A DNA stretch of 64,000 bases, from positions 1,116,001-1,180,000 of the forward strand of contig NZ_PGEX01000001.1 of the NCBI RefSeq assembly GCF_002797675.1, written 5' to 3'. The notes under the pieces are model-generated. The model made no database searches, had not been told where the DNA came from, and was given only the letters and a program-made list of their open reading frames with translations. The DNA is from Hallerella succinigenes. GTDB taxonomy: Bacteria; Fibrobacterota; Fibrobacteria; Fibrobacterales; Fibrobacteraceae. Within the stretch, counting starts at the first letter, position 1. Each line of letters begins with the position of its first letter. Both the position numbers and the translations under genes were made by a program. This document shows positions 3,810 to 58,698 of this stretch, in pieces.

Positions 3810-5249
3810 TTACTTGGCAGCCTGAGCCTGGATAGAAGTCAAAGCGATCGTATAAACGATGTCTTCGACGAGAGCGCCACGAGACAAGTCGTTCACCGGC
3901 TTGGCAAGCCCCTGGAGCATCGGGCCGACGGCGATCACGCCCTGAGCGGAACGCTGAACAGCCTTGTAGCAGATGTTACCGGCGCAAAGGTCCGGAAACA
4001 CGCAAACGGTAGCCTTGCCAGCAACAGCACTGCCCGGAGCCTTGAGCTTTGCCACGCTTTCGGTCGTTGCCGCATCGTACTGCAGCGGGCCATCAATCGT
4101 GATGTCCGGACGAGCGTCTCGCACAGCCTGCGTTGCTGCCATGCAAAGTTCCACATCGTCACCCTTGCCGCTTTTGCCGGTACCGTAGCTGAGCATTGCC
4201 ACACGAGCCGGAAGATTGAAAGCCTTTGCAGTATCGTGGCTCTGGATTGCGATGCCAGCGAGTTCTTCTGCAGTCGGGTTCAAATTGATGGCGCAGTCAC
4301 CGAACACATAAACTTGGGACGGGAGACAAACAAAGAAGACCGAGCTGATGGACTTTACGCCCGGAGCGCACTTGATCACCTGCAGAGCCGGACGCACTGT
4401 GTCTGCGGTAGAGTGGACAGCGCCCGAAACGAGACCGTCGACTTCATCCTTCTTGAGCATCATCGTGCCGAGGAATACCGGGTCCTTCAAAACTTCACGA
4501 GCCTTTTCTTCGGTCATGCCTTTTGCCTTGCGGAGTTCCACGAGAAGCGGAACATACTTTTCGGCAAGTTCTGCGGTCGGTTCTATGATTTCAAAGCCTG
4601 CCGGAACCGTGAGGTTCTGGCGAGCGGCTTCGGCTTCGACGTCGGCCTTTTTCGCGATGAGGACCGGGATTGCGATTTTGCGTTCGTAGGCTTCGATAGC
4701 AGCCTTGAGAGTGCGCGGTTCAGCGCCTTCCGGGAGAACGATGCGCTTTAAGCTACGGGAAGCGAGCTTGATCAAATTGCGACGGAATTCCGCCTGGGAA
4801 ATGCGATGTTCGCATTTTGCAAAAAGGATCTTCTTCACGGCGTCTTCATTCGCCGAGTCACCGTCTGCGAGCACAAAGGCAACGCGGGTCTTTGCAGCCG
4901 CAAAGTCCGCAGCGACGATGGCTCCGTTTTCATCGGAATCGGCAACGAGAATCACGTCGGCATCGAGAGCGGCAGCGATCTGGATATTCAAAGTTTCACT
5001 GCGAACGGACTGTTCGAGCGACACACCGGTAACGACAAAAGCTTCTGCGGCAGAGTCCTGCACAGCGCCGACGAGAGCTTCCATCGAAGCGTCTGCACCC
5101 TGGGACTGCAAAACGGTCGGCACCATTTCCGTAGCGACAAAAGATTCTGCGGAAGCGACATTCTTTTTCACAACACTCAGGACAGATTCAGCAGCCTGGG
5201 CAAGATTTACACCGGCGGAAGCCGGGAGAACGAGAAATACGTGTTTCAT
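3810..5249 (-). CDS. pta: Phosphate acetyltransferase
   Basis: Pta interconverts acetyl-CoA and acetyl phosphate, the first step of acetate fermentation in the cytoplasm. The C-terminal 310 residues are a full PTA_PTB catalytic domain ([61 protein letters not shown]). The N-terminal 150 residues resemble the BioD-like regulatory domain of long Pta proteins but lack an obvious P-loop, and the protein (479 aa) is much shorter than the roughly 700-aa enterobacterial type. The ATG at 5249 has GGAG six bases upstream, whereas the longer frame to 5288 has no site. It follows the sigma-54-type activator gene at 5289 with 39 bp between, so co-transcription is likely. No ackA is present in the window. 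Confidence 0.93.
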
Positions 5250-44657: not shown

Positions 44658-44833
44658 TTAGGCTTTTACCGTTGTGAATGCAAAAGCTTCGCCATCAGCA
44701 TCATTAACTTCGAGGCCATCGGCAGCGGCAGCCCACTTGATAGCGACCGCTTGAGTTTCGCCTGCGATGTAAGCTTCGTTCTCCGCCACGGCCTGCTTGA
44801 AGACTTCGCTTGCAGAGGACAGCGTCACTTCTT
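44658..44833 (-). pseudogene. ileS 3'-end remnant A (56 codons)
   Basis: Read on the minus strand this encodes the last 56 or so residues of isoleucyl-tRNA synthetase, from EVTLSSASEVFKQAVAENEA through GETQAVAIKWAAAADGLE to TTVKA and a stop at 44658-44660. It closely resembles the end of remnant B (52256-52910) with scattered codon differences, and less so the end of the intact ileS. Its upstream edge is fused directly to the tail of a PIN toxin remnant. It has no start and cannot be functional. I read it as the oldest displaced ileS 3' end at this locus. Confidence 0.85.
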
Positions 44834-44996: not shown

Positions 44997-46367
44997 GGTA
45001 ACGTATATTTTCTTTCGCAAATTCCTCTAAGGGAGTAAAAAAAATAGGATGTTCCAATTTTTAGATTTGAAATAATCACAAATCAACCTAAAAAGGACCA
45101 TCCTATGGACAACAATATAATCAAAATCGACGAAGAAGGCCTCAAGAACGACCTGAAAGGAGTCATTAGAAAGACCATCGAGGAAACCCTCAACACGATG
45201 CTGGACGAGGAAGCCGCGGAGCTGTGCAACGCGGAAAGGCATGAGCGGACTGACGAGCGCAGGAACTACCGCAGCGGTCATTACCACCGCAAGCTTCTGA
45301 CTTCCGCCGGAGAGGTCGACCTGTCCGTACCCAAGCTGCGCCTGGCCCCGTTCGAGACCGCCATCATCGAGCGCTACAGACGCAGGGAATCGTCCGTGGA
45401 GGAGTCTCTCATCGAGATGTACCTGGCGGGAGTATCCGTGCGCCGCGTGGAAGACGTCACGGAGCTCCTGTGGGGCTCTCGGGTCAGCGCCTCGACCGTC
45501 AGCAACCTGAACCAGAAGGTATACGGCAAGATCGAGGAATGGCGAAACAGGGCCATAGGCGGGGAATACCCCTACGTGTTCGTTGACGGCATCTACCTGA
45601 AGCGCAGCTGGGGCGGCGAAATGACCAGCGTCTCGGTACTTGTCGCGATAGGGGTGTCCGAAGACGGCTACCGGGAGATACTCGGAGCATGCGAGGGCGC
45701 AAGCGAAAGCAAGGAATGCTGGCGTAGCTTCCTCGTAAGCCTCAGGGAACGTGGCCTGAATGGCGTCCGGCTGTTCACATCGGACAAACACCTGGGCTTC
45801 CTGGAATCGGCCTCGGAAGTGTTCCCGGATGCGAAATGGCAACGCTGCATGGTGCATTTTTTCAGGAACCTGATGACAAAGATCCCTCGCAACAAGCTCG
45901 CTTCGGCCATGCCCCTGCTGAAGGCTACGTACGCCCAGGAAGACAAGGAGGCGACACTGAAAAAGGTTGCCGACGTAGAACAGAAACTGCGCGATATGGG
46001 GCTAAAATCCGCCGCAGACCTTTACCGCAAGGGCGTGATGGAGACGCTGACCTATCTCGACTTCCCGCACGAACACTGGCGCAGCATAAGGACGAACAAC
46101 ATCCTGGAACGCCTGAACCGGGAGATACGCAGAAGGACTCGGGTTGTGGGTTGCTTCCCGGACGGGGAATCTGCCCTGATGCTTGTGTGCGCTAGGCTAA
46201 GGCATATCGCCACGAAGGAATGGGGTACCAAGAGATACCTGAACATGAAGCATCTTTACGAGATGGAAAAGGAGAACGAGCTGAAACGGGAACAGGAAAA
46301 GGACGGAAATGTAGCCTAGATCTGATGTTGGGACAAACTATTTTTGCGAAAAACCCTTGACACTACC
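44997..46367. mobile_element. IS256-family insertion sequence, complete
   Basis: The element is 1371 bp. Its ends are imperfect inverted repeats: the left starts GGTAACGT and the right, read inward, GGTAGTGT, with a shared TTTCGCAAA at equal distance from both ends. ACTAAACA is duplicated at 44989-44996 and 46368-46375, giving an 8-bp target duplication as expected for IS256 relatives. It carries one intact transposase gene and lies inside an antitoxin gene. Confidence 0.87.
45105..46319 (+). CDS. IS256-family transposase
   Basis: This 404-aa mutator-type DDE transposase shows Asp in VFVDGIYLK, Asp in LFTSDKHLGF, the conserved CMVHFFRN segment and the final Glu in TNNILERLNREIRRR. Length and motifs are complete, so the enzyme is probably active. 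AAAGGA precedes the ATG. Codon use is richer in GC than in the surrounding remnants, as expected for a recently arrived element. Confidence 0.95.
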   Translation: MDNNIIKIDEEGLKNDLKGVIRKTIEETLNTMLDEEAAELCNAERHERTDERRNYRSGHYHRKLLTSAGEVDLSVPKLRLAPFETAIIERYRRRESSVEESLIEMYLAGVSVRRVEDVTELLWGSRVSASTVSNLNQKVYGKIEEWRNRAIGGEYPYVFVDGIYLKRSWGGEMTSVSVLVAIGVSEDGYREILGACEGASESKECWRSFLVSLRERGLNGVRLFTSDKHLGFLESASEVFPDAKWQRCMVHFFRNLMTKIPRNKLASAMPLLKATYAQEDKEATLKKVADVEQKLRDMGLKSAADLYRKGVMETLTYLDFPHEHWRSIRTNNILERLNREIRRRTRVVGCFPDGESALMLVCARLRHIATKEWGTKRYLNMKHLYEMEKENELKREQEKDGNVA

Positions 46368-46529
46368 ACTAAACAGAGACCAATCCTTTTCGGGGACATC
46401 CAGATAAATTCCTTTTGCCGCTTGCTCCGCTAACATATTATACCTTTGTGTTAAAACCTACAATCAACATATATTTTCCTTCAGAAGAAATGCAAGTTGC
46501 ACCCACAGAAAAAAGCCTAGAATTAAGCA

Positions 46530-46557
46530 AAAAGACCGCAGCGGTGAGCTACGGTCT
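46530..46557 (-). terminator. Terminator T, copy 1
   Basis: AGACCGCAGC and GCTACGGTCT pair with one wobble position (46533-46542 and 46548-46557), with a T-run on the minus strand. The hairpin is base-for-base the same as the one following ileS remnant B at 52203-52230. Here it follows a palindromic repeat instead of an ileS tail. Confidence 0.8.
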
Positions 46558-46568
46558 AAATTTTTTGG

Positions 46569-46735
46569 GGGCGTTCCCCACTTTGTGGGTCGGGCTGTCG
46601 CGGTATCGCACGGCAATTTTACAAACAACAACAAGGTCGCCGTGCGTCCGTTCAGCCTTTGATTTCGTCATTCCGGCCATTGAGCCGGAATTGACTCGTC
46701 AAAGTCCGAACCCTTCGGGCTTCCATCCCTAACGC
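46569..46735. repeat. Palindromic intergenic repeat R, copy 1
   Basis: This 167-bp stretch starts GGGCGTTCCCCACTTTGTGG and ends CATCCCTAACGC, so the ends are inverted (GCGTT/AACGC). It contains smaller hairpins such as ATTCCGGC-N6-GCCGGAAT. It begins 6 bp after the stop codon of the minus-strand membrane-protein gene. Copy 2 at 52918-53037 shares the first 28 or so bases and the last 11 but differs in the middle. Confidence 0.75.
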
Positions 46736-46741
46736 GAAAAG

Positions 46742-47716
46742 CTACATTTTTGATCCTAAATTAATGGTTTCTATTAAGCTTGAAACAATACTTGTTGGAA
46801 ACAAGCCATAGGCAACCAGAATGACCGCTGTTGAAACAATTAAGATGGTGGGAATAATTCCTAACCCAAGAAGTAAGAAAACGCACAAGCTCCACTTCTT
46901 TGAAAATTGCATTGGCTCTATTTTTCTCCGACTAACAGTCCCAAAAACCTCCGAAACCAATTGTGCGGCGGTGAATTTATTTCTGCCAAATATAAATTTA
47001 TTCTGAATAACAGCGAGAATCCGCATGATATACTTAATAATACATACAATCGAAACAACAATGAGTGCAAAAAACGATATGGAATACAGCCATCCGCCAA
47101 CCGATATTTCTTGGAAGCGCAATCCAAACAATTGCGTTGATGAAAAAAGGGTGGATGTTACAAGAAGAGCGACAAAGAAGATAAAGTACCGCATCAAACC
47201 ATCGGATTGAACTTCTGTTTTTGCTCGTTCCCAGTCATATTTTAGATTATGGGACATACCTTCTTCAAAATAAGCAAGAAGTTTCATTACAGAAATCTTC
47301 TCACCATCACCCCAAAATCGATAATCTTTCCATTGCAATGAAAGTTCATAAGTTGCTGCTGCATCCTTGTGTGCCAACATATCCAATATCGCCATTAGTT
47401 TACAATCTTCTTTATCACTCAAGTTCAATCGAACTTCAAAGAATGCTTTGGCTTCTGCAGCGGAATGAAATACGATGCCGCAATTTTCCTTACCATCTGT
47501 TTCATTCCCTTTGTTACAAAAACGATCCTTATTTTCAAAATATCGCCTCAACGCAATCGTTGCACCTCGCAAGTCGTCTCGCCATTTCTTGCGTTCTTGG
47601 GTGATGTTTTCGATGGCGTTCTTTTTGTCGGCGGTTGATTTTGTGATAAAAGCCGTAATCAAGGCTGAAACAATGCCTATTAATGCTGCCGTAATTTCTG
47701 AATTCATATTTTCCAT
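46742..47716 (-). CDS. Membrane protein of unknown function in the ileS island
   Basis: I do not recognise this 324-aa protein. It has an N-terminal helix (EITAALIGIVSALITAFITK), a soluble, partly charged region of about 140 residues, then three or four helices (around YFIFFVALLVTS, LYSISFFALIVVSIVCIIKY and CVFLLLGLGIIPTILIVSTA). A small helix, a soluble sensor-like region and a cluster of C-terminal helices recall effector proteins in phage-defence loci, but this is only a topological likeness. The ATG at 47716 precedes the first helix directly. It ends 6 bp before repeat R and terminator T. Codon use is AT-rich. Confidence 0.6.
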   Translation of the reverse strand: MENMNSEITAALIGIVSALITAFITKSTADKKNAIENITQERKKWRDDLRGATIALRRYFENKDRFCNKGNETDGKENCGIVFHSAAEAKAFFEVRLNLSDKEDCKLMAILDMLAHKDAAATYELSLQWKDYRFWGDGEKISVMKLLAYFEEGMSHNLKYDWERAKTEVQSDGLMRYFIFFVALLVTSTLFSSTQLFGLRFQEISVGGWLYSISFFALIVVSIVCIIKYIMRILAVIQNKFIFGRNKFTAAQLVSEVFGTVSRRKIEPMQFSKKWSLCVFLLLGLGIIPTILIVSTAVILVAYGLFPTSIVSSLIETINLGSKM

Positions 47717-47800
47717 AATAATCATCTATTTCTTAAATTTTCGCGACCGAGCTTCGCGCAGGTTGGGGGTGGGGCTACTGCCCTTGGCGGTTGCCTACAG

Positions 47801-50800
47801 TCAGTCCCGGAGACAACGAACAGAAAACCCGTAGCGCTTGTAGTCGTAGTTCAGGCTCGCATCGTCATTGCTGTAGTACAAGTACATGATGTACGCGTAG
47901 CTGCCATTGCTCTCCGTAGAACTCCAGAAGTTCGCGCCGTAGCCGTAGTAGAAGTAGGCGTAGTTGTAGCCGCCAACAGGCAGCGCCGAAAAACCGAAGG
48001 CGTCCGTTCCATTACCATTAGAATTCCATCCGTTTGTTGCTTTGAGCATTTTTCCTGCCGTTGATTCTCCTCCTACATTCATGAAAAGGGTTTCAAATTC
48101 AGTCCTGGTCGGCAGGTGCCATCCGCTGGGGCAAATTCCACGCACAGGGTATGTGGGCGTGCAAATCTTGCCATATCCGCAGCCTTTTCCTCTGGAACTG
48201 AATGTTCCAGCACTATCCATGGCGGCAGCCCAGGTGTATACGCGGCCATATTTAGCGCAACTGTCCAAGCTGTTTTTTAAACACCAGTTCCGTTTTTGCA
48301 TTCCGGGGTAACTGACGCTATCGGAATAGTTCAGGTTTTCCGCCATCCAGGTTTGAGTTCCGATAGTGACAATTTTATACATCTTTTTATCTCTCCTATC
48401 CAACAGATACCCTTCAGGAACAATAATTTCTGAACCCTGCCATACCCCTTTTTTACAAGTATAAATGGAATCGGTTGTGCTAGATATGAGCCTTATGATT
48501 TCATTCCCTTCTGTATAGCTGACACAACCCTTATTCAGGGAAATTTCCTGTTCATTTACAGTTCTAAAGGTGTCTGCATCACAGACATATTTGTTTGTTG
48601 AAGTAACTTCTCCAAAGACAATTGAACCGTCTGTAAGACATATTTTTCCATAGGTGTCATACTCTAGCACAGTTGCAACGTTCCATTTCTCAGACTTGCA
48701 GATGTAATACACGTCGTTCATTTTTTCGACGGCACCATTCTTTGCCGTGGTGCAATATCCTAGTTCATATTCTGTAGCGGTGATCTCTTTCCAAGCTTTA
48801 TTTTCGCAGATGTAGTACTTGCCGTTGAGCGGATGTTTTTCACTTTCGCGAATGGTGACGCACGCGCCGTAGTTGTATTCCACATCGTTCTTGCTTGCAC
48901 GCCACGCCCCGTTTTCGTACACGTAATGGTTCGAGGTATCCACGCTGCCTGGCTTGACGGCTCCTTCCGTCCCGGCATCCCAGCCGTAGGTGTCGTATTC
49001 TAAAGCCGTTGATTTCGTCCAGCCGCTTGTCTTGCAGGTATAGTAGGTGTTCCCGGACTTACCCACTTCATTCAATCGGCTTGTGACGCATGCGCCCAGG
49101 TTGTTTTCGATTTCACTTGCAGATGCCCGCCACGCCCCGTTTTCGTAGACATAATACTTGTTTTCATTTACCTTGCCTATGCGGACTTCGCCGTCGTTGC
49201 CCGCACCGAACTGGTAGGTGTCGTATTCCAGCATGGTGGCCTTGCGCCAGTTCTTGCTGTCGCAAATAAAGTAGGTGGTGTCGATTTTACCTATTTCGCC
49301 ATTGCGGGCCTCGGTACATAGTCCAAGGGCCGTTTCGTTTTTCGCCACGGTCCACTTGCCGTTTTCAAACACATAGTAAGTCGCCGTCACGTTTCCTTTC
49401 TTGACTTCGCCCTCTTCACCTTCGGCCCACTGGTAGGTGTCCTTCTCGAAATCGGTCGCCTTCTGCCAACCTGTGGCCTTGCAGATGTAGTGGACTTTGT
49501 AATTCTTGCTCTTGGCGTTCCTGTTCTGGGCCACCACATCGTAGCGGGTCGAGGCGCAGCCGCCCAGTTCGTAGGCGTTGTTCCAGTAAATGGTCAGGTA
49601 GTTCTCGTAGGCGGGAATGTCCAGGATGTTCCAGCTCTTCACGTTGGCCCGCACGGAACCGCCGTCAAAACCTTCGGCCCAGTCCGCCATGTCGGCCTTG
49701 GTCTGGGCGTCGTTCCACTCGCCGTCACCGGCCATGTCCTGCTTAAAGTCGGCAATGGCCTTCTGGATTTCGGCTTCGTTCCTGTCGCCAATGAAAAGCA
49801 AAGAAATCGCCATCAGGGTGGCATTGACATCGTGGTTCGTGCTGGTGGATGGCACGAATGTTTTCAGGTCTTCGGAATACTCCACCGTCGTCGCAAAACC
49901 GAACGCCGTCATGATTTCATAATCCGCCTGTTTCTTGGCAGCAAACACGCTGTAGCCCTTGTTCACCAGTTTTACGGCGCGGTCGTATTCCAGGTGGGTC
50001 AGCAGGTTGATGTTCACCTCGGTGCGAGTGGTAAGGTCCGTCAAGGCGCGGAGCGTCATGGAATCCTTGCTCCATTCGCCGGTCACTTCGTTGCGCCACA
50101 GGCCACGGACTTCAAGCACCGCGTAGGGATAAACCAGATTTACCTTCGGAATCACGAAGTCGCCCTTGTTGCTGGAAATTTCATCGATGTATTCGCGGCC
50201 CGTGTAGGTCAGTGCGTCGTCGTGCAAAAGGACTTCGCGGAGCGTCAGGGGCGAATCGAACTTGAAAGGACCCTTCTGCGCCGCACCCAAAATGGACGCG
50301 TTCTTCACGACATAGCCGTCGGCGGTCTCGGGTACCCACTTTACGGAATCGCATCTGAAGAAGACGGAATCCTTCTTGACCAAAATGCGCTGCTTGGCGT
50401 TGCCTGCGTGGCACTGGGGCAAGTCTTCCTTGGTAGGAACGATGTCGTAACCCAGGTAGGTATCGTCCTTTGCCCAGCCATCCGCCTTGCACGTAAAGTA
50501 AGAAGAATCGGCCAGCACCAGGGCGCGTAGGCCGATGGCGCTGGAATCGCAGGCGACAAGTTTGTCTTTTGACTGCACTTCGATGTAGGACTCACGAACC
50601 GAAGAACTGGAGCCGTTGCCGCTTAGCGGGTCGTCCACTGTGGAACTGCTAGATTCCGGGTCGATGCCCGGAACGATGCTGGAAGAAGACTGCGCCGGGT
50701 CGGGATTCTCCGGCAGGGTCGTGATGTCGAGCCAGTTGTTGCCGGAACACAGGTAGTCGATGGATTGCGCCGTGACATACACGGTATCCCCTTCGCGGTC

Positions 50801-50974
50801 GGGGGTGCAGGCTCCAAGGTCGTAGATAGTGGAAACTTCGCGGACGGGGGCATCTTCTGCTCCGCTGGACTTGCTCCCGCTATCACCACCGCAGGCGGCA
50901 AGCACAAGGACCGCCATGGATCCTATCGCTAGGCTCCAGGAGGAAGACTTTTTCGGATTTGGCATGGTTTTCAT
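47801..50974 (-). CDS. FISUMP-domain lipoprotein with internal repeats
   Basis: This 1057-aa exported lipoprotein has the lipobox VLAAC near residue 28, then two poly-Ser linkers. A region of about 300 residues follows (KNASILGAAQKGPFKFDSPL onward) resembling domains of other Fibrobacter surface lipoproteins. Next come five or six divergent repeats of about 70 residues (YYVYENGAWRAS, LEYDTY, YYICKSEKWN). The end is a complete FISUMP domain (YLLDRRDKKMYKIVTIGTQT, GICPSGWHLPTRTEFETL, FWSSTES, YGFSVRCLRD). FISUMP domains are related to C-type-lectin/sulfatase-modifying folds and are abundant in Fibrobacter. It is probably a surface binding protein. It is one cargo gene of the ileS island. Confidence 0.85.
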   Translation of the reverse strand: MKTMPNPKKSSSWSLAIGSMAVLVLAACGGDSGSKSSGAEDAPVREVSTIYDLGACTPDREGDTVYVTAQSIDYLCSGNNWLDITTLPENPDPAQSSSSIVPGIDPESSSSTVDDPLSGNGSSSSVRESYIEVQSKDKLVACDSSAIGLRALVLADSSYFTCKADGWAKDDTYLGYDIVPTKEDLPQCHAGNAKQRILVKKDSVFFRCDSVKWVPETADGYVVKNASILGAAQKGPFKFDSPLTLREVLLHDDALTYTGREYIDEISSNKGDFVIPKVNLVYPYAVLEVRGLWRNEVTGEWSKDSMTLRALTDLTTRTEVNINLLTHLEYDRAVKLVNKGYSVFAAKKQADYEIMTAFGFATTVEYSEDLKTFVPSTSTNHDVNATLMAISLLFIGDRNEAEIQKAIADFKQDMAGDGEWNDAQTKADMADWAEGFDGGSVRANVKSWNILDIPAYENYLTIYWNNAYELGGCASTRYDVVAQNRNAKSKNYKVHYICKATGWQKATDFEKDTYQWAEGEEGEVKKGNVTATYYVFENGKWTVAKNETALGLCTEARNGEIGKIDTTYFICDSKNWRKATMLEYDTYQFGAGNDGEVRIGKVNENKYYVYENGAWRASASEIENNLGACVTSRLNEVGKSGNTYYTCKTSGWTKSTALEYDTYGWDAGTEGAVKPGSVDTSNHYVYENGAWRASKNDVEYNYGACVTIRESEKHPLNGKYYICENKAWKEITATEYELGYCTTAKNGAVEKMNDVYYICKSEKWNVATVLEYDTYGKICLTDGSIVFGEVTSTNKYVCDADTFRTVNEQEISLNKGCVSYTEGNEIIRLISSTTDSIYTCKKGVWQGSEIIVPEGYLLDRRDKKMYKIVTIGTQTWMAENLNYSDSVSYPGMQKRNWCLKNSLDSCAKYGRVYTWAAAMDSAGTFSSRGKGCGYGKICTPTYPVRGICPSGWHLPTRTEFETLFMNVGGESTAGKMLKATNGWNSNGNGTDAFGFSALPVGGYNYAYFYYGYGANFWSSTESNGSYAYIMYLYYSNDDASLNYDYKRYGFSVRCLRD

Positions 50975-52202: not shown

Positions 52203-52230
52203 AAAAGACCGCAGCGGTGAGCTACGGTCT
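52203..52230 (-). terminator. Terminator T, copy 2
   Basis: Same hairpin as at 46530-46557 (arms 52206-52215 and 52221-52230). It lies 26 bp after the stop of ileS remnant B and is its natural terminator. Confidence 0.82.
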
Positions 52231-52255
52231 AAATTTTTAGGTCTGGATTCTTCGA

Positions 52256-52910
52256 TTACGCTTTTACCGTCGTAAAGCTGAAAGCCTCTCCATCGGCATC
52301 GTTGGCTTCCAAGCCATCGGCAGCGGCAGCCCACTTGATAGCGACCGCTTGCGTCTCTCCGGCGATGTAAGCCTCGTTTTCCGCGACAGCTTGCTTGAAT
52401 ACGTCGCTTGCAGAGAACAGCGTCACTTCGATTTTGTCGGTGATGGCGTAGTTCTGATCCTTTCTTCTGTTCTGGATGCGGTTCACGAGTTCGCGGGCCA
52501 CGCAGGCGCGGCGGAGTTCGTCCGTGATCTTCAGGTCCAGAGCCACGGTGAAGTGCTGATTGGCTTCCACGGCCATGCCGTCGGCCACGATGCGGTTGAG
52601 CATCAGGCAGTCGGCACCGACTTCACCGAAATCGAACTTGATGGTTTGCGCTTCGCGCCCAACCTCTTCGGCTCGGTCATGAGAAGACAAGTCTTCTCGC
52701 GACTCTCGCCTTGCGTGGTTGTCGCCATTCTGCAGCAGGGCCTTGATTTCATCGACGGTCAGCGAATTCAGCTTGGCAGAAATCACCTTCATGTTCTTCG
52801 CGTAATCCGGGCCCTTCGCCTTGATGGCGAGGAAGTTCGGCTTGGCGGAGAGCTTCTCGAGCTTGGTTTGCACTTCGTGCCAACTTCATTTCGCGAACGT
52901 TGAGTTCTTC
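52256..52910 (-). pseudogene. ileS 3'-end remnant B (about 200 codons)
   Basis: Read on the minus strand this matches the anticodon-binding C-terminal region of isoleucyl-tRNA synthetase. It begins EELNVREMK at 52910, where the intact gene has EELNVEEMK at 56098. A frameshift follows, then KPNFLAIKAKGPDY, EANQHFTVALDLKITDELRR, ARELVNRIQNRRKDQNYAIT and the end TTVKA. Codon use is GC-rich, like the 5' two thirds of the intact ileS and unlike that gene's own 3' end. An insert near the middle contains a short palindrome (52681-52698). It has no start of its own. I read it as the previous native 3' end of ileS, displaced by the restriction-modification island. Confidence 0.88.
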
Positions 52911-52917
52911 TTTTTTA

Positions 52918-53037
52918 GGGCGTTCCCCACTTCGTGGGTCGGGCTATATTTTATGGGTTGCCCGATTCACTCCGTTCCCGCCCAACCTCATAAAACGGCG
53001 CCACAGCGCCGCCCCAAGGGGTCACTATCCCTAACGC
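52918..53037. repeat. Palindromic intergenic repeat R, copy 2
   Basis: This 120-bp stretch starts GGGCGTTCCCCACTTCGTGG and ends TATCCCTAACGC. Internal hairpins include GGCGC-CACA-GCGCC and CCCAC-TTC-GTGGG. It lies exactly between the stop codon of the cytosine methyltransferase (7 bp away) and the first homologous base of ileS remnant B (7 bp away). Confidence 0.75.
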
Positions 53038-53044
53038 AGAAAAA

Positions 53045-54382
53045 CTACAAATCTAGAACAGCAGCCGTTCCTCGTGAGCCTCTTTTTTGAACTAAAGATT
53101 TCCGTTCGATGTCCTCAGGGCTCATCATTTTCGAAACTTTTTTTAGTGCTTTCTCTAATCGCAGATTTATTGAGATATTCCGCTCTTTTTTTCTTCGCAA
53201 AATACCATGACAGCCAACCGGAGACAAATAAATATCTTGAGATACTTCAGATGTCACAATATCCTGCATTGTTTTAAACACACAGTGACTTGGTACAACA
53301 GACGCGTTGACTTTCTTATTATCCGCTAATTCAACTTTTCCATCACCGAAATGATACAAATACGCTTTTTTTGACAGCGTTTCATATTTTAGAAATTTTC
53401 TATTCCTTCCCGCAACAAATTCTATTTTTTTGTCGTTAATAAGTCTGTCGCCAATCCACTTTACAACAGGAACAGCCCATGAATTTCCAACAGCCTGATA
53501 TCGATTCGTTTTCCTCGCACCCTGTATATTCGTGTAATCATCGGGAAAACCCATTAAACGTTCACATTCCAATGGAGAAAGTCTTCTCACTCGTTCATCT
53601 TGCACCACAAATAATGACCCGTTGTATGCAGCAGCATTTCCATTCCATTTTGTTCCATATGCAGCATAAAGACAATCGGAATACGATCTAAATACTTCAA
53701 AATGGTGTCCGTCCTTTGAAAAGGATAGCGGAGTTACCGGATATTCATATTTTTCATTAGAACTTTCTTCAAAAAGGATTTGTTCGGGATGATAATTTTT
53801 TCCGGTTGCTAAAACATACAAGCGCCTTCTTTGCTGGGGCAATCCAAAATACTTCGCATCAAGAACTCTCCAAGCAACATTTCTATCGGGTCCTTCCAAT
53901 AATCCAGAAGAAGGCCATCTTTTTACATTCTGAATTTTTTTTAATCCTGCTAAAGAAGCTATAAGGCAACCGAAAGCATTCGTTTTATCCGTCAAAACGC
54001 CTTCCACATTTTCCCAAAAAACACAGCACCTACTTTTTCTTTTTTTTCGTCTAGCAACATCATTTGCATTGATAATATCAACGAACTTTAACGTCAAATT
54101 ACCCCTATCATCATTCAGCCCTCTCTGATTTCCCGCTAAAGAAAATGCCTGGCAAGGAGTTCCTCCGCAAATAAGATCAGGTGCTTCAATTTCACCATTT
54201 AACAACAAAGAGGGAATATTATTCATATCTCCTAAATTTTTTACAGCCGGATACTTCTCTTTTAGCACCTTTGACTGAAAATTTGCTATTTCAGAAAACC
54301 ATGAAAAAACTACACCAAAAGGCTTCCAAGCAACAGAAGCCGCTTCAATACCAGAACATATGCTTCCTACAGTTTGTATCAT
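53045..54382 (-). CDS. C5-cytosine DNA methyltransferase
   Basis: This 445-aa DNA (cytosine-5) methyltransferase has motif I SICSGIEAAS, catalytic motif IV GGTPCQAFSLAG, motif VI FWENVEGVL, motif VIII GLPQQRRRLYVLA, and IX/X LMGFPDDYTN plus YQAVGNSWAVPV. About 130 extra residues follow motif X and are rich in Lys; they may contact DNA or a partner. It sits 34 bp downstream of an HNH endonuclease gene, so the pair is probably a type II restriction-modification system. Both genes are clearly more AT-rich than the flanking core genes, a sign of transfer. Confidence 0.93.
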   Translation of the reverse strand: MIQTVGSICSGIEAASVAWKPFGVVFSWFSEIANFQSKVLKEKYPAVKNLGDMNNIPSLLLNGEIEAPDLICGGTPCQAFSLAGNQRGLNDDRGNLTLKFVDIINANDVARRKKRKSRCCVFWENVEGVLTDKTNAFGCLIASLAGLKKIQNVKRWPSSGLLEGPDRNVAWRVLDAKYFGLPQQRRRLYVLATGKNYHPEQILFEESSNEKYEYPVTPLSFSKDGHHFEVFRSYSDCLYAAYGTKWNGNAAAYNGSLFVVQDERVRRLSPLECERLMGFPDDYTNIQGARKTNRYQAVGNSWAVPVVKWIGDRLINDKKIEFVAGRNRKFLKYETLSKKAYLYHFGDGKVELADNKKVNASVVPSHCVFKTMQDIVTSEVSQDIYLSPVGCHGILRRKKERNISINLRLEKALKKVSKMMSPEDIERKSLVQKRGSRGTAAVLDL

Positions 54383-54416: not shown

Positions 54417-55382
54417 TCAATATCCTATTTCTTTTAACATCTTATTGAATTTTTCTTTCCAATCCGCCAAGTCATACCATGGACATCCAACGCATCCCTT
54501 TTCATCAGATTTGTTGTCGCCTTTCCAACTACAATCTCCTTCCGAATACCAATCTATACCAAAGAAGTCACCTCTTTTACCAGTTTGCAAACATTTTGCA
54601 CAATATCTTTCTTTTTGAAGATTTGTTTGCTGTGTCAACAACTGAAATTTACTTTTTATTTCGTCATCAGTCATTGAAGCAAAATTTGGATTTTCCCCAA
54701 CTACCCATCTTGTTGATGGAAACTTATGATCAACCACTAAATTCTTTGAGCCAGCACCATACTTTTCATTAAAACAGGCATCCGTATACTCAAAAAGTTC
54801 TTTTATTCGACGCATTAGCGATGTTGGTATAGAAAAACGTTTATTGCTATTCCCAACAAGTTTTGGAATCCTAATCAACAAATCATGCGTTGTATATTTT
54901 CCACAAACCTCACACTTAAAATCTTTTGTTGCAATGTGATATCCATGAGTTTGTTTAAGAGCCCGTATTCTACTAGCCGCCTGCGAATTTACGCTACTTG
55001 TATCAGTACATTGCCGACACATCCAATTCGTTTGATGATATTGTGTTTCTCCATTTAAAACATCAAACAAAAGTTTTGCCATATCTGCCTTGGAACGACC
55101 ACTCCAATACAAATCCTCATCAGCATTCCATGTTTTTGAATTTCGAGGATCCAAGTCGTTATAACAATTTTTTACATATTCAACAACATCTTCTTTTGGC
55201 AATTGTGTTTTATCAAGACCTTGATACTTTTCTAATATGGGTATACAGCCCTTCCATGCAGGAGTTTTAGGATACTTAAATTCAACTTCAAGAAATAAAT
55301 CCGGCATTTTGGAAACCTGAAACACTTTAAATGTTTTAATTTCAGGGCAGATTTCCAAATCTTCAAAATCAAACTTTTTCAT
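54417..55382 (-). CDS. HNH-type restriction endonuclease, zinc-ribbon rich
   Basis: This 321-aa protein has an HNH/beta-beta-alpha-metal layout: VVDHKFPSTRW (Asp218-His219), Asn254 in QQTNLQKERY, and Cys pairs that could bind zinc (MCRQC at 122/125, CEVC at 157/160, CAKC at 261/264, CVGC at 297/300). Position just upstream of the cytosine methyltransferase makes it the likely cognate endonuclease. Recognition sequence unknown. It is AT-rich and acquired. Its start lies 71 bp past the terminator of the intact ileS. Confidence 0.78.
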   Translation of the reverse strand: MKKFDFEDLEICPEIKTFKVFQVSKMPDLFLEVEFKYPKTPAWKGCIPILEKYQGLDKTQLPKEDVVEYVKNCYNDLDPRNSKTWNADEDLYWSGRSKADMAKLLFDVLNGETQYHQTNWMCRQCTDTSSVNSQAASRIRALKQTHGYHIATKDFKCEVCGKYTTHDLLIRIPKLVGNSNKRFSIPTSLMRRIKELFEYTDACFNEKYGAGSKNLVVDHKFPSTRWVVGENPNFASMTDDEIKSKFQLLTQQTNLQKERYCAKCLQTGKRGDFFGIDWYSEGDCSWKGDNKSDEKGCVGCPWYDLADWKEKFNKMLKEIGY

Positions 55383-55497: not shown

Positions 55498-58400
55498 TTA
55501 TGCTCTCACAGCTTCAACAGCAACCTTTTCGCCGTCAGCATCTGTATCCTGCAAACCTGCTGCAGAATCCTTCCACACGATAGCATTAGCCTGAGTTTCA
55601 CCCTTGATGTAGGATTCGTTTTCGGTTACAGCCTGTTTCAGCACTTCACTTTCAGAATAAAGTTCAATGCTGATGCGATCTGTAATGGCGAAATCTTGGT
55701 CCTTACGGCGATTTTGAATACGATTAACCAATTCACGGGCAATGCACTTACGACGAAGTCTGTCGGACACCGTCAAATCAAGGGCAATCGTGAAGTGCTG
55801 GTTCGCTTCGACAGCCATACCTTCAGGGACTTTTCTTTGGATAAGTACATGTTTAGAAGTGTATTTCACATCAGAGCAGAAAGCACTTGTAACAGAGCCA
55901 CCATTCTGAAGATTAATAATATCACTTGAACTGAAGCCGGAAATTTCCTGCTGGAATTCACGCATCGGATGTTGTCCGAAAAGCGATGCAAAATCAGACT
56001 TGATGTTCAAGAAGTTAGGTTTAGCAGTACATTCAACCAAACTTGATTCGTCTTCTATGAACTTCATTTCTTCGACATTAAGTTCTTCGAGGATCAAGTC
56101 CTTCATGGCCTCAGCCACGTTCTTTTCGACCTTACCGTGAGCAACCACCGTCATGCTGGCAATCGGCATACGGTTCTTTACGTTGTTCGTAGCGCGAATC
56201 ACGCGGCCCATTTCGACCATGCCACGCACCATGGCGATGCGTTCCACGAGCTTTTCGTCCATCAGGGACTTGTCGGCGCTCGGGAATTCGCAGAGGTGCA
56301 CGCTCACCGGGGCGTTGGCGTCCACTTCACGCACGAGAATCTGGTAGATTTCTTCGGCGAGGAGCGGGAGGAACGGGGCGAGAATCTTGGAGAAGTCTAC
56401 GAGCACCTTGTACATGGTAGCGTAGGCGGCGTTCTTGTCGCCATCGTTTTCGGACTTCCAGAAACGGCGACGGCTGCGGCGCACGTACCAGTTCGTGAGG
56501 TCATCGACCGCGGCAATCACGGCGGGCACCACGTTGTACAGGCGGTAAGCCTTCATTTCCACTTCGACTTTGGCAGCGAGATCCTGCAGCGTTGCAAGCA
56601 TCCAGCGGTCAAGTTCGTTGTCGCTCTTGACTTCCTGACCTGGGCGCCAGTTGAGCTGGCCCTTGGCGGCGTCGGCGTTGTGGTTAGAAACAAAGAATGC
56701 AACAGCGTTCCAAAGCGGCAACATCACCTGCTTCACGATGCCCTTCACGCCTTCTTCGCTAAAGCGGAGGTCTTCAGCCTTCAAAGCGGCGGAGTTAATC
56801 ATGAACAAGCGAATAGCGTCAGCACCCGTGCGTTCAATAAGGTCGTTCGGGTCCGGGTAGTTGCGCTTGGACTTGCTCATCTTGGAACCGTCTTCGGCCA
56901 AGATGATACCGTTCACAATCACGTTCTTGAATGCAGGCTTTTGGAACAAAGCATTGGAAAGAACCGTCAGCGTGTAGAACCAACCGCGGGTCTGGTCCAG
57001 CCCTTCGGCGATAAAGTCTGCCGGGAAACTGGCTTCAACAACTTCCTTGTTTTCAAAGGGATAATGGCGGCTGGCATACGGCATGGAACCGGATTCAAAC
57101 CAGCAGTCGAACACTTCGGGCGTGCGGCGGTAAACCTTGCCATCCTTTTCAATCGTGAGCTTATCGACAAAGTGCTTGTGCAGGTCATCGAGCTTCACGC
57201 CGGTGAGCTGCTGGAGTTCTTCGATAGAACCCACAGCAATCATGTCGCCGTCGTCAGAGAGCCACACCGGAATCGGCGTACCCCAGAAGCGGTTACGGGA
57301 AAGGTTCCAGTCGCGGGCGCCTTCGAGCCACTTGCCAAAGCGTCCGTTCTTGATGTGGTCCGGCACCCAGTTCACGGTCTGGTTGTTTTCGACCATCCAT
57401 TCCTTCAGAGTCTTGGTCACGCCGTCCTTGCTCGTCACAGGCGCATCGATCTTCAGGAACCACGTCTTGAGGGCGCGGTAAATCAGAGGAACGCCGGTAC
57501 GCCAGCAGTGCGGGTAGCTGTGGACAATCACGTCCTGCTTGAACACGCGGCCCTGTTCCTTGAAGTAGCGGATAATTTCCTTGTCGGCTTCCTTTGCGCC
57601 CAGGCCCTTCCACATCGGGACCTTGTCGGTGAACTTGCCTTCGGTATCCAGCGGGTCGAAAAGGCCGAGGTCGAGTTCAGCACCCTTCTGGAAGTCTTCT
57701 TCACCGAAGGAAGGAGCGGTATGCACGGCGCCGGTACCGTCTTCGGTACTCACGTAGTCGGCGGGGTAAATCTTGTAGTGGCGGGACAGCTGGTCCGGCG
57801 TCACGAACGCGTCGGAAATGCGAGATAGCGGTTCGTAGTCCTTGCCCACGAGTTCAGAGCCCTTGCAGGTATCGACGATGTTCGGGTTCTTGAAGTAGGC
57901 AGCGGTGCGGCTTGCGGCAATCCAGTACTTCTTGCCATCAGTCTCCACCAGGTTGTAGTCCATGTCCGGGCCCACAACGATGCAGAAGTTGGAATAAAGC
58001 GTCCACGGGGTCGTCGTCCACACGAGAATGCTCGTGTCCTTGAACTTGGGCTCGTTGGAGTTAATCGGGAAGATGAGCGTCAGGGACGGGTCCTGACGGT
58101 CCTTATAGCCCTGGTTCGTTTCGAAGTTCGAAAGCGGAGTGGCGAGAGCCGGGCTGTACGGTTGGATGCGGTAGCCCTGGTAAATAAGGCCCTTGTCGAA
58201 GCACTGCTTGAACACCCACCACACCGATTCCATGAAGTTCTTGTCCATGGTCTTGTAGCCCTTGTCGAAGTCGACCCAGCGGCCCATGCGGCGAACGGTC
58301 TTCTTCCATTCGTTGGTGTACTTGAGCACCTTGCTGCGGCAAGTTTCGTTGAACTTGTCGACACCGAGCTTCTGGATTTCGGCAACGCCAGCGAGACCGA

Positions 58401-58698
58401 GTTCGTTCTGAACGAGAGATTCAATGGGGAGGCCGTGGCAGTCCCAACCGAAACCGCGGGGAACCTTCTTGCCCTTCATGGTCCAGTAACGCGGAACGAT
58501 ATCCTTGATGGTACCGGCAAGCAAGTGACCGTAGTGCGGAAGGCCTGTCGCAAACGGAGGGCCATCGTAGAAAGTATACGGTTCGGTTTCCGGACGGGAG
58601 TCCAGCGACTTCTTGAACGATTCATCCTTATCCCACAGGGCGAGCACGCGCTCTTCGATCTGCGGGAAGGTCTCTTCTTTCTTTACTTCACGAAACAT
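55498..58698 (-). CDS. ileS: Isoleucyl-tRNA synthetase with replaced 3' end
   Basis: IleS charges tRNA-Ile and is essential. The 1066-aa protein belongs to the longer, eukaryote-like class: PPFATGLPHYGHLLAGTIKD (HIGH motif near residue 55), GWDCHGLPIE, editing domain, KMSKSKRN near 604 and a long anticodon-binding domain. From about 56098 to the stop (200 codons) base composition and codon choice turn AT-rich. In the same region the protein diverges from remnants A and B, which fit the 5' part better. The 3' end was probably swapped in together with the restriction-modification genes. The reading frame is intact, so the hybrid must work. Confidence 0.95.
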   Translation of the reverse strand: MFREVKKEETFPQIEERVLALWDKDESFKKSLDSRPETEPYTFYDGPPFATGLPHYGHLLAGTIKDIVPRYWTMKGKKVPRGFGWDCHGLPIESLVQNELGLAGVAEIQKLGVDKFNETCRSKVLKYTNEWKKTVRRMGRWVDFDKGYKTMDKNFMESVWWVFKQCFDKGLIYQGYRIQPYSPALATPLSNFETNQGYKDRQDPSLTLIFPINSNEPKFKDTSILVWTTTPWTLYSNFCIVVGPDMDYNLVETDGKKYWIAASRTAAYFKNPNIVDTCKGSELVGKDYEPLSRISDAFVTPDQLSRHYKIYPADYVSTEDGTGAVHTAPSFGEEDFQKGAELDLGLFDPLDTEGKFTDKVPMWKGLGAKEADKEIIRYFKEQGRVFKQDVIVHSYPHCWRTGVPLIYRALKTWFLKIDAPVTSKDGVTKTLKEWMVENNQTVNWVPDHIKNGRFGKWLEGARDWNLSRNRFWGTPIPVWLSDDGDMIAVGSIEELQQLTGVKLDDLHKHFVDKLTIEKDGKVYRRTPEVFDCWFESGSMPYASRHYPFENKEVVEASFPADFIAEGLDQTRGWFYTLTVLSNALFQKPAFKNVIVNGIILAEDGSKMSKSKRNYPDPNDLIERTGADAIRLFMINSAALKAEDLRFSEEGVKGIVKQVMLPLWNAVAFFVSNHNADAAKGQLNWRPGQEVKSDNELDRWMLATLQDLAAKVEVEMKAYRLYNVVPAVIAAVDDLTNWYVRRSRRRFWKSENDGDKNAAYATMYKVLVDFSKILAPFLPLLAEEIYQILVREVDANAPVSVHLCEFPSADKSLMDEKLVERIAMVRGMVEMGRVIRATNNVKNRMPIASMTVVAHGKVEKNVAEAMKDLILEELNVEEMKFIEDESSLVECTAKPNFLNIKSDFASLFGQHPMREFQQEISGFSSSDIINLQNGGSVTSAFCSDVKYTSKHVLIQRKVPEGMAVEANQHFTIALDLTVSDRLRRKCIARELVNRIQNRRKDQDFAITDRISIELYSESEVLKQAVTENESYIKGETQANAIVWKDSAAGLQDTDADGEKVAVEAVRA

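Follow-up and report, generated by a model that had tools for sequence, protein, structure and literature searches.

A hairpin repeat with conserved ends borders cargo genes and displaced core-gene 3' parts in Fibrobacter genomes

Background

Insertion of restriction-modification genes with long target duplication is familiar from the work of the Kobayashi group, and a related paper is available (PMC3031569). In such insertions, as in the units described here, the restriction-modification genes are flanked by a long direct duplication of the neighbouring gene. Unlike them, our units always have one edge formed by the same repeat, which we call R, carry varied cargo, and can bring along a foreign gene tail. 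A long direct host repeat on both sides of the inserted genes is present at our locus; the copies of ileS in the window (the whole stretch of 64,000 nucleotides that was analysed) are only distantly similar to each other.

Genomic islands in which the 3' end of a protein-coding gene is replaced resemble R units in two respects: the target gene retains its full length, and the far edge is marked by a displaced 3' fragment. They differ from the R units, which have long tails, many insertion points per gene and a constant R, and whose example in the window contains no integrase. Of the features of such islands, an intact target and a displaced resident 3' end are thus met, but an integrase in the unit is not.

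Integron cassettes end in attC sites, which, like R, are hairpins with conserved ends and a variable interior located directly behind the cargo gene. However, attC needs RYYYAAC on its 5' side and GTTRRRY on its 3' side, a requirement that R, both strands of which begin with GCGTT and end with AACGC(C), does not meet; unlike in integrons, no integron integrase was found in the genome. One-ended rolling-circle transposition (IS91/ISCR, Helitron-like) is characterized by a fixed hairpin-bearing end, a variable other end and the capture of neighbouring genes. R units have these features in common with it, and no such transposase was identified (no systematic search was made).

As a motif, R overlaps with Flavo-1 (Rfam RF01705), which Weinberg et al. 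(2010, PMC2864571) described as an RNA whose function was unknown. Flavobacterial/Bacteroidota relatives with the same R ends score above the gathering threshold of this family on the strand that reads GCGTTAGGG...AACGCCC. The gathering value of the covariance model, 42 bits, was exceeded by L081, L054, L099, L072 and L103; there was no match in the window at E<=1, and none for L003, L007, L008 and L050. In the transcriptome of F. psychrophilum, Flavo-1 is found on either strand and often outside transcripts (PMC9723704). Unlike the described Flavo-1 RNA, R looks like DNA and sits at cargo boundaries. No earlier description of R was found in the literature, which was searched by sequence strings and topic.

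Results

Two R copies at the ileS locus

The features of the locus are collected in Table 1. The first unit in the window holds a restriction endonuclease and a methyltransferase only, i.e. a type II restriction-modification pair (a match of the endonuclease to PF05315, at 0.0017, was below the cut-off). The methyltransferase stop at 53045 is separated from R copy 2 by 7 bp, and 7 bp beyond R copy 2 the ileS sequence resumes with the codon at position 52910. The sequence that follows R copy 2 on the ileS strand is GAAGAACTCAACGTTCGCG, with the ileS codons from EELNV onward. In the second unit, 6 bp lie between the cargo stop at 46742 and R copy 1. The exact R ends occur only twice in the window, and the interiors of the two copies differ. 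Both copies fold well as single-stranded DNA when compared with shuffled sequences (z -2.9 and -4.6).

Table 1. Features of the ileS locus in the window
Feature	Position	Strand	Remark
R copy 2	52918..53037	-	52918 (GGGCGTTCCCC) to 53037 (CCCTAACGC)
R copy 2 terminus			GGGCGTT end (AACGCCC on - strand) is the unit terminus
A-rich filler TAAAAAA (ileS strand)	52911..52917	-	between R terminus and resident ileS codon
R copy 1	46569..46735	-	terminus abuts second ileS terminator copy
Functional ileS (hybrid)	55498..58698	-	identity comparison with relatives
Foreign 3' part of functional ileS	55498..56088	-	begins within 8 bp of point B
Displaced 3' part of resident ileS	52256..52910	-	starts at codon EELNV (point B)
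Cargo: type II restriction endonuclease (IceA-like)	54417..55382	-	PADLOC REase_II, 1.6e-35
Cargo: C5-cytosine DNA methyltransferase	53045..54382	-	PF00145, 1.1e-40; stop 7 bp before R
Q hairpin insertion core	52673..52708	-	inside displaced ileS tail
ileS terminator, copy beside displaced tail	52203..52240	-	
Second unit, cargo: Fib_succ_major lipoprotein	47801..50974	-	PF09603, 9.3e-28
Second unit, last cargo gene (membrane protein)	46742..47725	-	stop 6 bp before R copy 1
ileS terminator, copy abutting R copy 1	46529..46566	-	same joint in L050
Third ileS 3' remnant	44661..44828	-	older event

The original prediction, made from the sequence alone, had placed copy 2 between a cargo stop and a displaced ileS tail with about 7 bp on each side, had let copy 1 start 6 bp after another cargo stop and end beside an ileS-type terminator, and had described R as having conserved ends and non-conserved interiors. 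All of this held. The third remnant of an ileS tail at 44661-44828 had been overlooked.

The functional ileS of the window was compared with that of related species. Over the 150 bases that precede the joint codon, identity to G029 is 96.7%; over the 150 bases that follow, it is 49.3%, and a similar fall at this codon is seen against other close species. Because identity to relatives falls there, the window ileS is a hybrid with a foreign tail from the joint onward. This tail starts no more than 8 bp from the position at which, behind R, the resident sequence picks up again. The joint, consisting of R, A-rich bases and the same codon, is identical in four species (G000, G001, G005 and G022), with A-rich filler equivalent to that of the window behind R in G001, G005 and G022. 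ileS, cargo, R and terminator also form a similar array in L050, from another Fibrobacter assembly. The second unit with its duplicated ileS terminator, together with the third ileS remnant, indicates that the locus was hit repeatedly.

Two further observations concern ileS. A gene for a Mutator-family (IS256-like) transposase at 45105-46319 adjoins the third remnant, and in G005 (L291, C78), near 4657, a further R is located ~180 bp upstream of the ileS start, besides the R at the displaced tail.

Occurrence and structure of R

A search of the 3.13-Mb genome for GGGCGTT-N-GGTCGGG yielded 10 matches, versus 0 for the reversed control. One match (222949) has no 3' end and is not an R; subtracting it and adding one copy that is split by an IS gives 10 R copies in the genome. 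R is also found in sister genera, many Bacteroidota, Treponema and viral/phage contigs. Written as GCGTTAGGG...AACGCCC, it has conserved ends and a hairpin beside the AACGCCC end, the arms of which covary; its length ranges from 86 to 234 bp, and several copies in a row occur. R preferentially sits behind the stop codon of a co-oriented gene: for 42 of 62 copies, the gene upstream has its 3' end facing R, and in 19 of those this end is at most 28 bp away.

The stems of Fibrobacter R contain 252 Watson-Crick, 4 GT and 4 AC pairs, those of other R 301, 6 and 14. Without an excess of wobble pairs there is no clear RNA signature, and this tips the balance slightly towards a DNA hairpin rather than an RNA. 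R has short inverted ends (GCGTT/AACGC); when it was tested as a MITE, scans of viral sequences gave only R-bearing contigs, without an empty site.

Shared cargo ends at the AACGCCC end of R

Where the same cargo and R are found at unrelated loci, similarity stops at the AACGCCC end, with a deviation of 0 to +3 bp. L310 and L353 (from G016 and G021) share 2962 bp in this way, and L094 and L313 (the latter from G016) share 629 bp; in the shorter shared pairs of cargo and R, L310/L317 and L311/L318, homology is likewise lost at the R end. In two pairs with shared cargo, similarity starts only ~60 bp inside the cargo gene, and the other edge therefore looks like recombination within the gene. A homologue of the cargo gene of R copy 1, again followed by R, is present elsewhere in G031 (L358) with 85.8% identity over 961 bp, in an alignment that ends inside the variable part of R.

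The cargo directly before R in five Fibrobacter loci (L320, L335, L345, L348 and L352) includes the PADLOC candidates PDC-S15 (FRG) and PDC-S01 (AAA/DUF4143), as well as a type I specificity subunit, an LlaJI-like nuclease and a YafQ toxin. Among the viral contigs, L181/L243 and L223/L229/L235 are related phages with different genes beside R, and there similarity restarts 2 bp from the other (GCGTTAGGG) end of R.

R adjoins displaced 3' parts of core genes

Six of the 10 R copies in this genome adjoin displaced 3' parts of core genes; at the other four there is no displaced gene part or duplication. Many of the 71 R matches from Fibrobacteraceae precede a 5'-truncated part of a core gene, namely thrS (in four species), PFOR and carB (in several places each), ugd, leuS, ileS and others, and G001 has one further thrS copy pair. 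For many copies, the full-length core gene lies 2-15 kb upstream of R with the cargo in between. For several Fibrobacter copies with a core-gene-like flank, a search of the 18 kb upstream did not turn up a full-length copy. ORF calling followed simple rules, and, ileS apart, the core genes were named from recognisable sequence rather than by a family search.

Direct upstream duplicates of the R flank were found at carB, thrS, PFOR, ugd and ileS. At the DNA level, 9 of 22 R copies had such a duplicate upstream, versus 6 of 329 random positions (20-kb loci, Fisher p ~1e-8; the loci were partly picked for gene-like flanks). In the reciprocal test, R stood at the start of nearly all displaced tails of ileS, thrS, carB and PFOR, cuts at contig ends being excluded; of the two seeming exceptions, one had an R of variant sequence and the other an R interrupted by an IS. 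A few short core-gene fragments stay without R (G005 C33:63790 and G022 C32). Among 118 R loci from Bacteroidota and viruses, 2 duplications were counted versus 1 in the mirror control, and the link to duplications is thus absent there.

Between the end of R and the core gene there are 0-14 mostly A-rich bases; one filler is C-rich. The insertion points share no motif or core sequence, and they differ within carB and within PFOR. In thrS, the last ~40 codons are diverged in most pairs, and no jump in divergence is seen at the R joint; a foreign-tail boundary at this joint was rejected, since identity does not jump there. An empty site for thrS, ileS, carB or PFOR could not be demonstrated in the species compared, because gene order around these genes is not conserved between species. 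Most of the comparison genomes are fragmented assemblies, often broken at these repeats. At the thrS, carB and PFOR loci (L427-L442), the genes are up to ~95% identical between species, with essentially no shared downstream DNA.

It had been proposed that R marks the boundaries of cargo as the terminal or attachment sequence of a mobile unit. This is supported for a terminus, and only for the GGGCGTT end: R marks one side of the cargo and does not flank it on both, and no evidence shows that an enzyme uses it as an attachment site. The suggested check, that R copies abut stop codons and partial 3' duplicates of core genes, was fulfilled by many Fibrobacter copies. The finding that would have refuted the prediction, R copies scattered without a link to 3' gene duplications, was not borne out in Fibrobacter; outside Fibrobacter this link is absent.

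A second hairpin repeat, Q, is cleanly inserted in displaced gene tails. It is ~66-80 bp long, sometimes 130-158 bp, and often has its first copy 30-50 bp from the R joint, with further copies at intervals of a few hundred bases. Q was seen downstream of R in L302, L306, L310, L324, L331, L363, L369 and L372; the strict Q motif occurs only 3 times in the whole genome, always within displaced tails. It is conceivable that Q breaks up homology and in this way stabilises the duplication.

Search for the moving enzyme

No integrase, reverse transcriptase or Y1 transposase could be linked to the R units of the window: the two-gene unit has no integrase, and Y1 transposases are absent from the window units. 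The genome encodes five tyrosine recombinases (PF00589), all located away from R. Three that are not Xer-like scored 43-73 bits versus the cut-off of 265 for the integron integrase TIGR02249. A reverse transcriptase (RVT_1) was not found in the genome. For units outside the window, the analysis was limited to ORF calls and a partial Pfam scan.

Discussion

Proposed mechanism

The order of the parts in the window units, the precise terminus, the ileS joint in several species, the foreign ileS tail beginning at this joint and the ending of cargo at R are observed directly. Our interpretation, that R is the terminal sequence of mobile cargo units which move as follows, has in our judgement as much chance of failing as of holding. 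A unit would consist of a core-gene 3' part, the cargo genes and R, in this order. On insertion, its GGGCGTT/AACGCCC end would be joined, via 0-14 mostly A-rich bases, to an internal codon of a resident core gene, and its left side would be joined in frame within the same gene. Due to this in-frame join, the gene would stay full length, and the resident 3' part would be left as a dead fragment behind R. Strains would later swap units by homologous recombination in which the gene body and the dead fragment serve as the two arms, and new cargo could thereby stack at the same spot.

That R acts as a DNA hairpin which is cut or joined by a trans-acting enzyme is an inference, and so are one-ended insertion with homology on the left and the use of the fragments as recombination arms. 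At the PFOR gene of G005, the fragment behind R is 94-95% like that of the sister genus and the functional copy 76-82%, and in G006 the functional and displaced tails are nearly identical over the last 600 bases. These patterns suggest that units carry the fragments along and that recombination takes place between fragments and resident genes.

In a bolder reading, which we put forward as a possibility only, R would be the DNA terminus of a one-ended system for moving genes whose units carry no enzyme. A host or phage enzyme would act on the folded strand, the core-gene piece would, through its homology, direct the unit to the corresponding gene in a new host, and the relatives in Bacteroidota, Treponema and phages would be the same kind of end. 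The phage group in which the gene beside R is swapped, with the edge 2 bp from the other end of R, is in line with the last of these points.

Such a role would be a concrete one for a widespread orphan (Flavo-1-like) motif that has so far been filed as an RNA of unknown function. It would also point to a route by which defence and accessory genes can join essential genes without an integrase in the unit, a poorly understood kind of gene movement. As exact edges are predicted in any Fibrobacter genome, R could be used to delimit cargo, and its presence might flag hidden gene exchange among Bacteroidota, Fibrobacterota, spirochaetes and the phages of these groups.

Alternative explanations

Ordinary recombination remains a possible alternative. 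It would suffice that foreign DNA entered through homology within a conserved gene at one edge and through an illegitimate join at the opposite edge, either by homology-facilitated illegitimate recombination or by insertion with long target duplication, and R would merely be a common hairpin after genes and a frequent point of breakage or stalling rather than a dedicated terminus. Several observations are in line with this: the insertion points are scattered and without a motif, R is often found just behind stop codons anyway, no enzyme is linked to it, and restriction-modification cargo is the classic case of long target duplication. However, across many genes and species the junction always falls on the same base of R, and the switch to the foreign ileS tail coincides with the R joint. 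Random ends would not always hit the R terminus, which argues against this explanation.

It is unlikely that the units are remnants of integrative elements which entered gene 3' ends by a site-specific recombinase, carried a replacement gene end and then lost the integrase, R being part of the attachment region. Foreign replacement of a gene 3' end at a fixed point is typical of such islands, and the same ileS joint is present in four species. On the other hand, the two-gene window unit has no integrase, and insertion points vary within carB and PFOR without a core sequence whereas R is constant.

We likewise doubt that R is a regulatory or terminator RNA (Flavo-1) and that the joints are secondary. 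Relatives do score as Flavo-1, and R follows stop codons. However, its stems show no wobble excess, the Flavo-1 matches of F. psychrophilum are on either strand and often untranscribed (PMC9723704), and the exact joints and duplications would be left unexplained.

An integron-like system, with cargo gene plus R as cassette and R as an unusual attC site, seems very unlikely. Conserved ends, a variable interior, the hairpin, a length of 86-234 bp, the location behind a stop codon and copies in a row would fit; but the order of GTT and AAC, read from the sequence, is inverted compared with attC, none of the three recombinases that are not Xer-like comes near the integron integrase cut-off, and attC does not account for displaced gene tails. 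Target-primed reverse transcription of a read-through RNA ending in R and a poly(A)-like tail would explain the A-rich filler directly behind R at most joints, but it is just as improbable, given that the genome has no reverse transcriptase, larger units carry genes on the opposite strand and one filler is C-rich.

Two further models were rejected. RNA-guided homing by the sequence behind R is contradicted by functional copies that often match the supposed guide perfectly (PFOR 28/28), and Campbell integration of a circle leaves unexplained that the ileS tail is foreign from point B onward.

Other settings of R

In L305 (G000:C1:2501000-2518000) and L311, several R copies of the same orientation are located beside genes with an 'ESLEPRMM' N-terminus, and a repeat, CACACTACACACTTCACACC, is present upstream of R. 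In L051, L062, L133 and L147 (Chitinophagales MAG-366), R is contained in a larger repeat that extends ~75 bp to its left and ~46 bp to its right.
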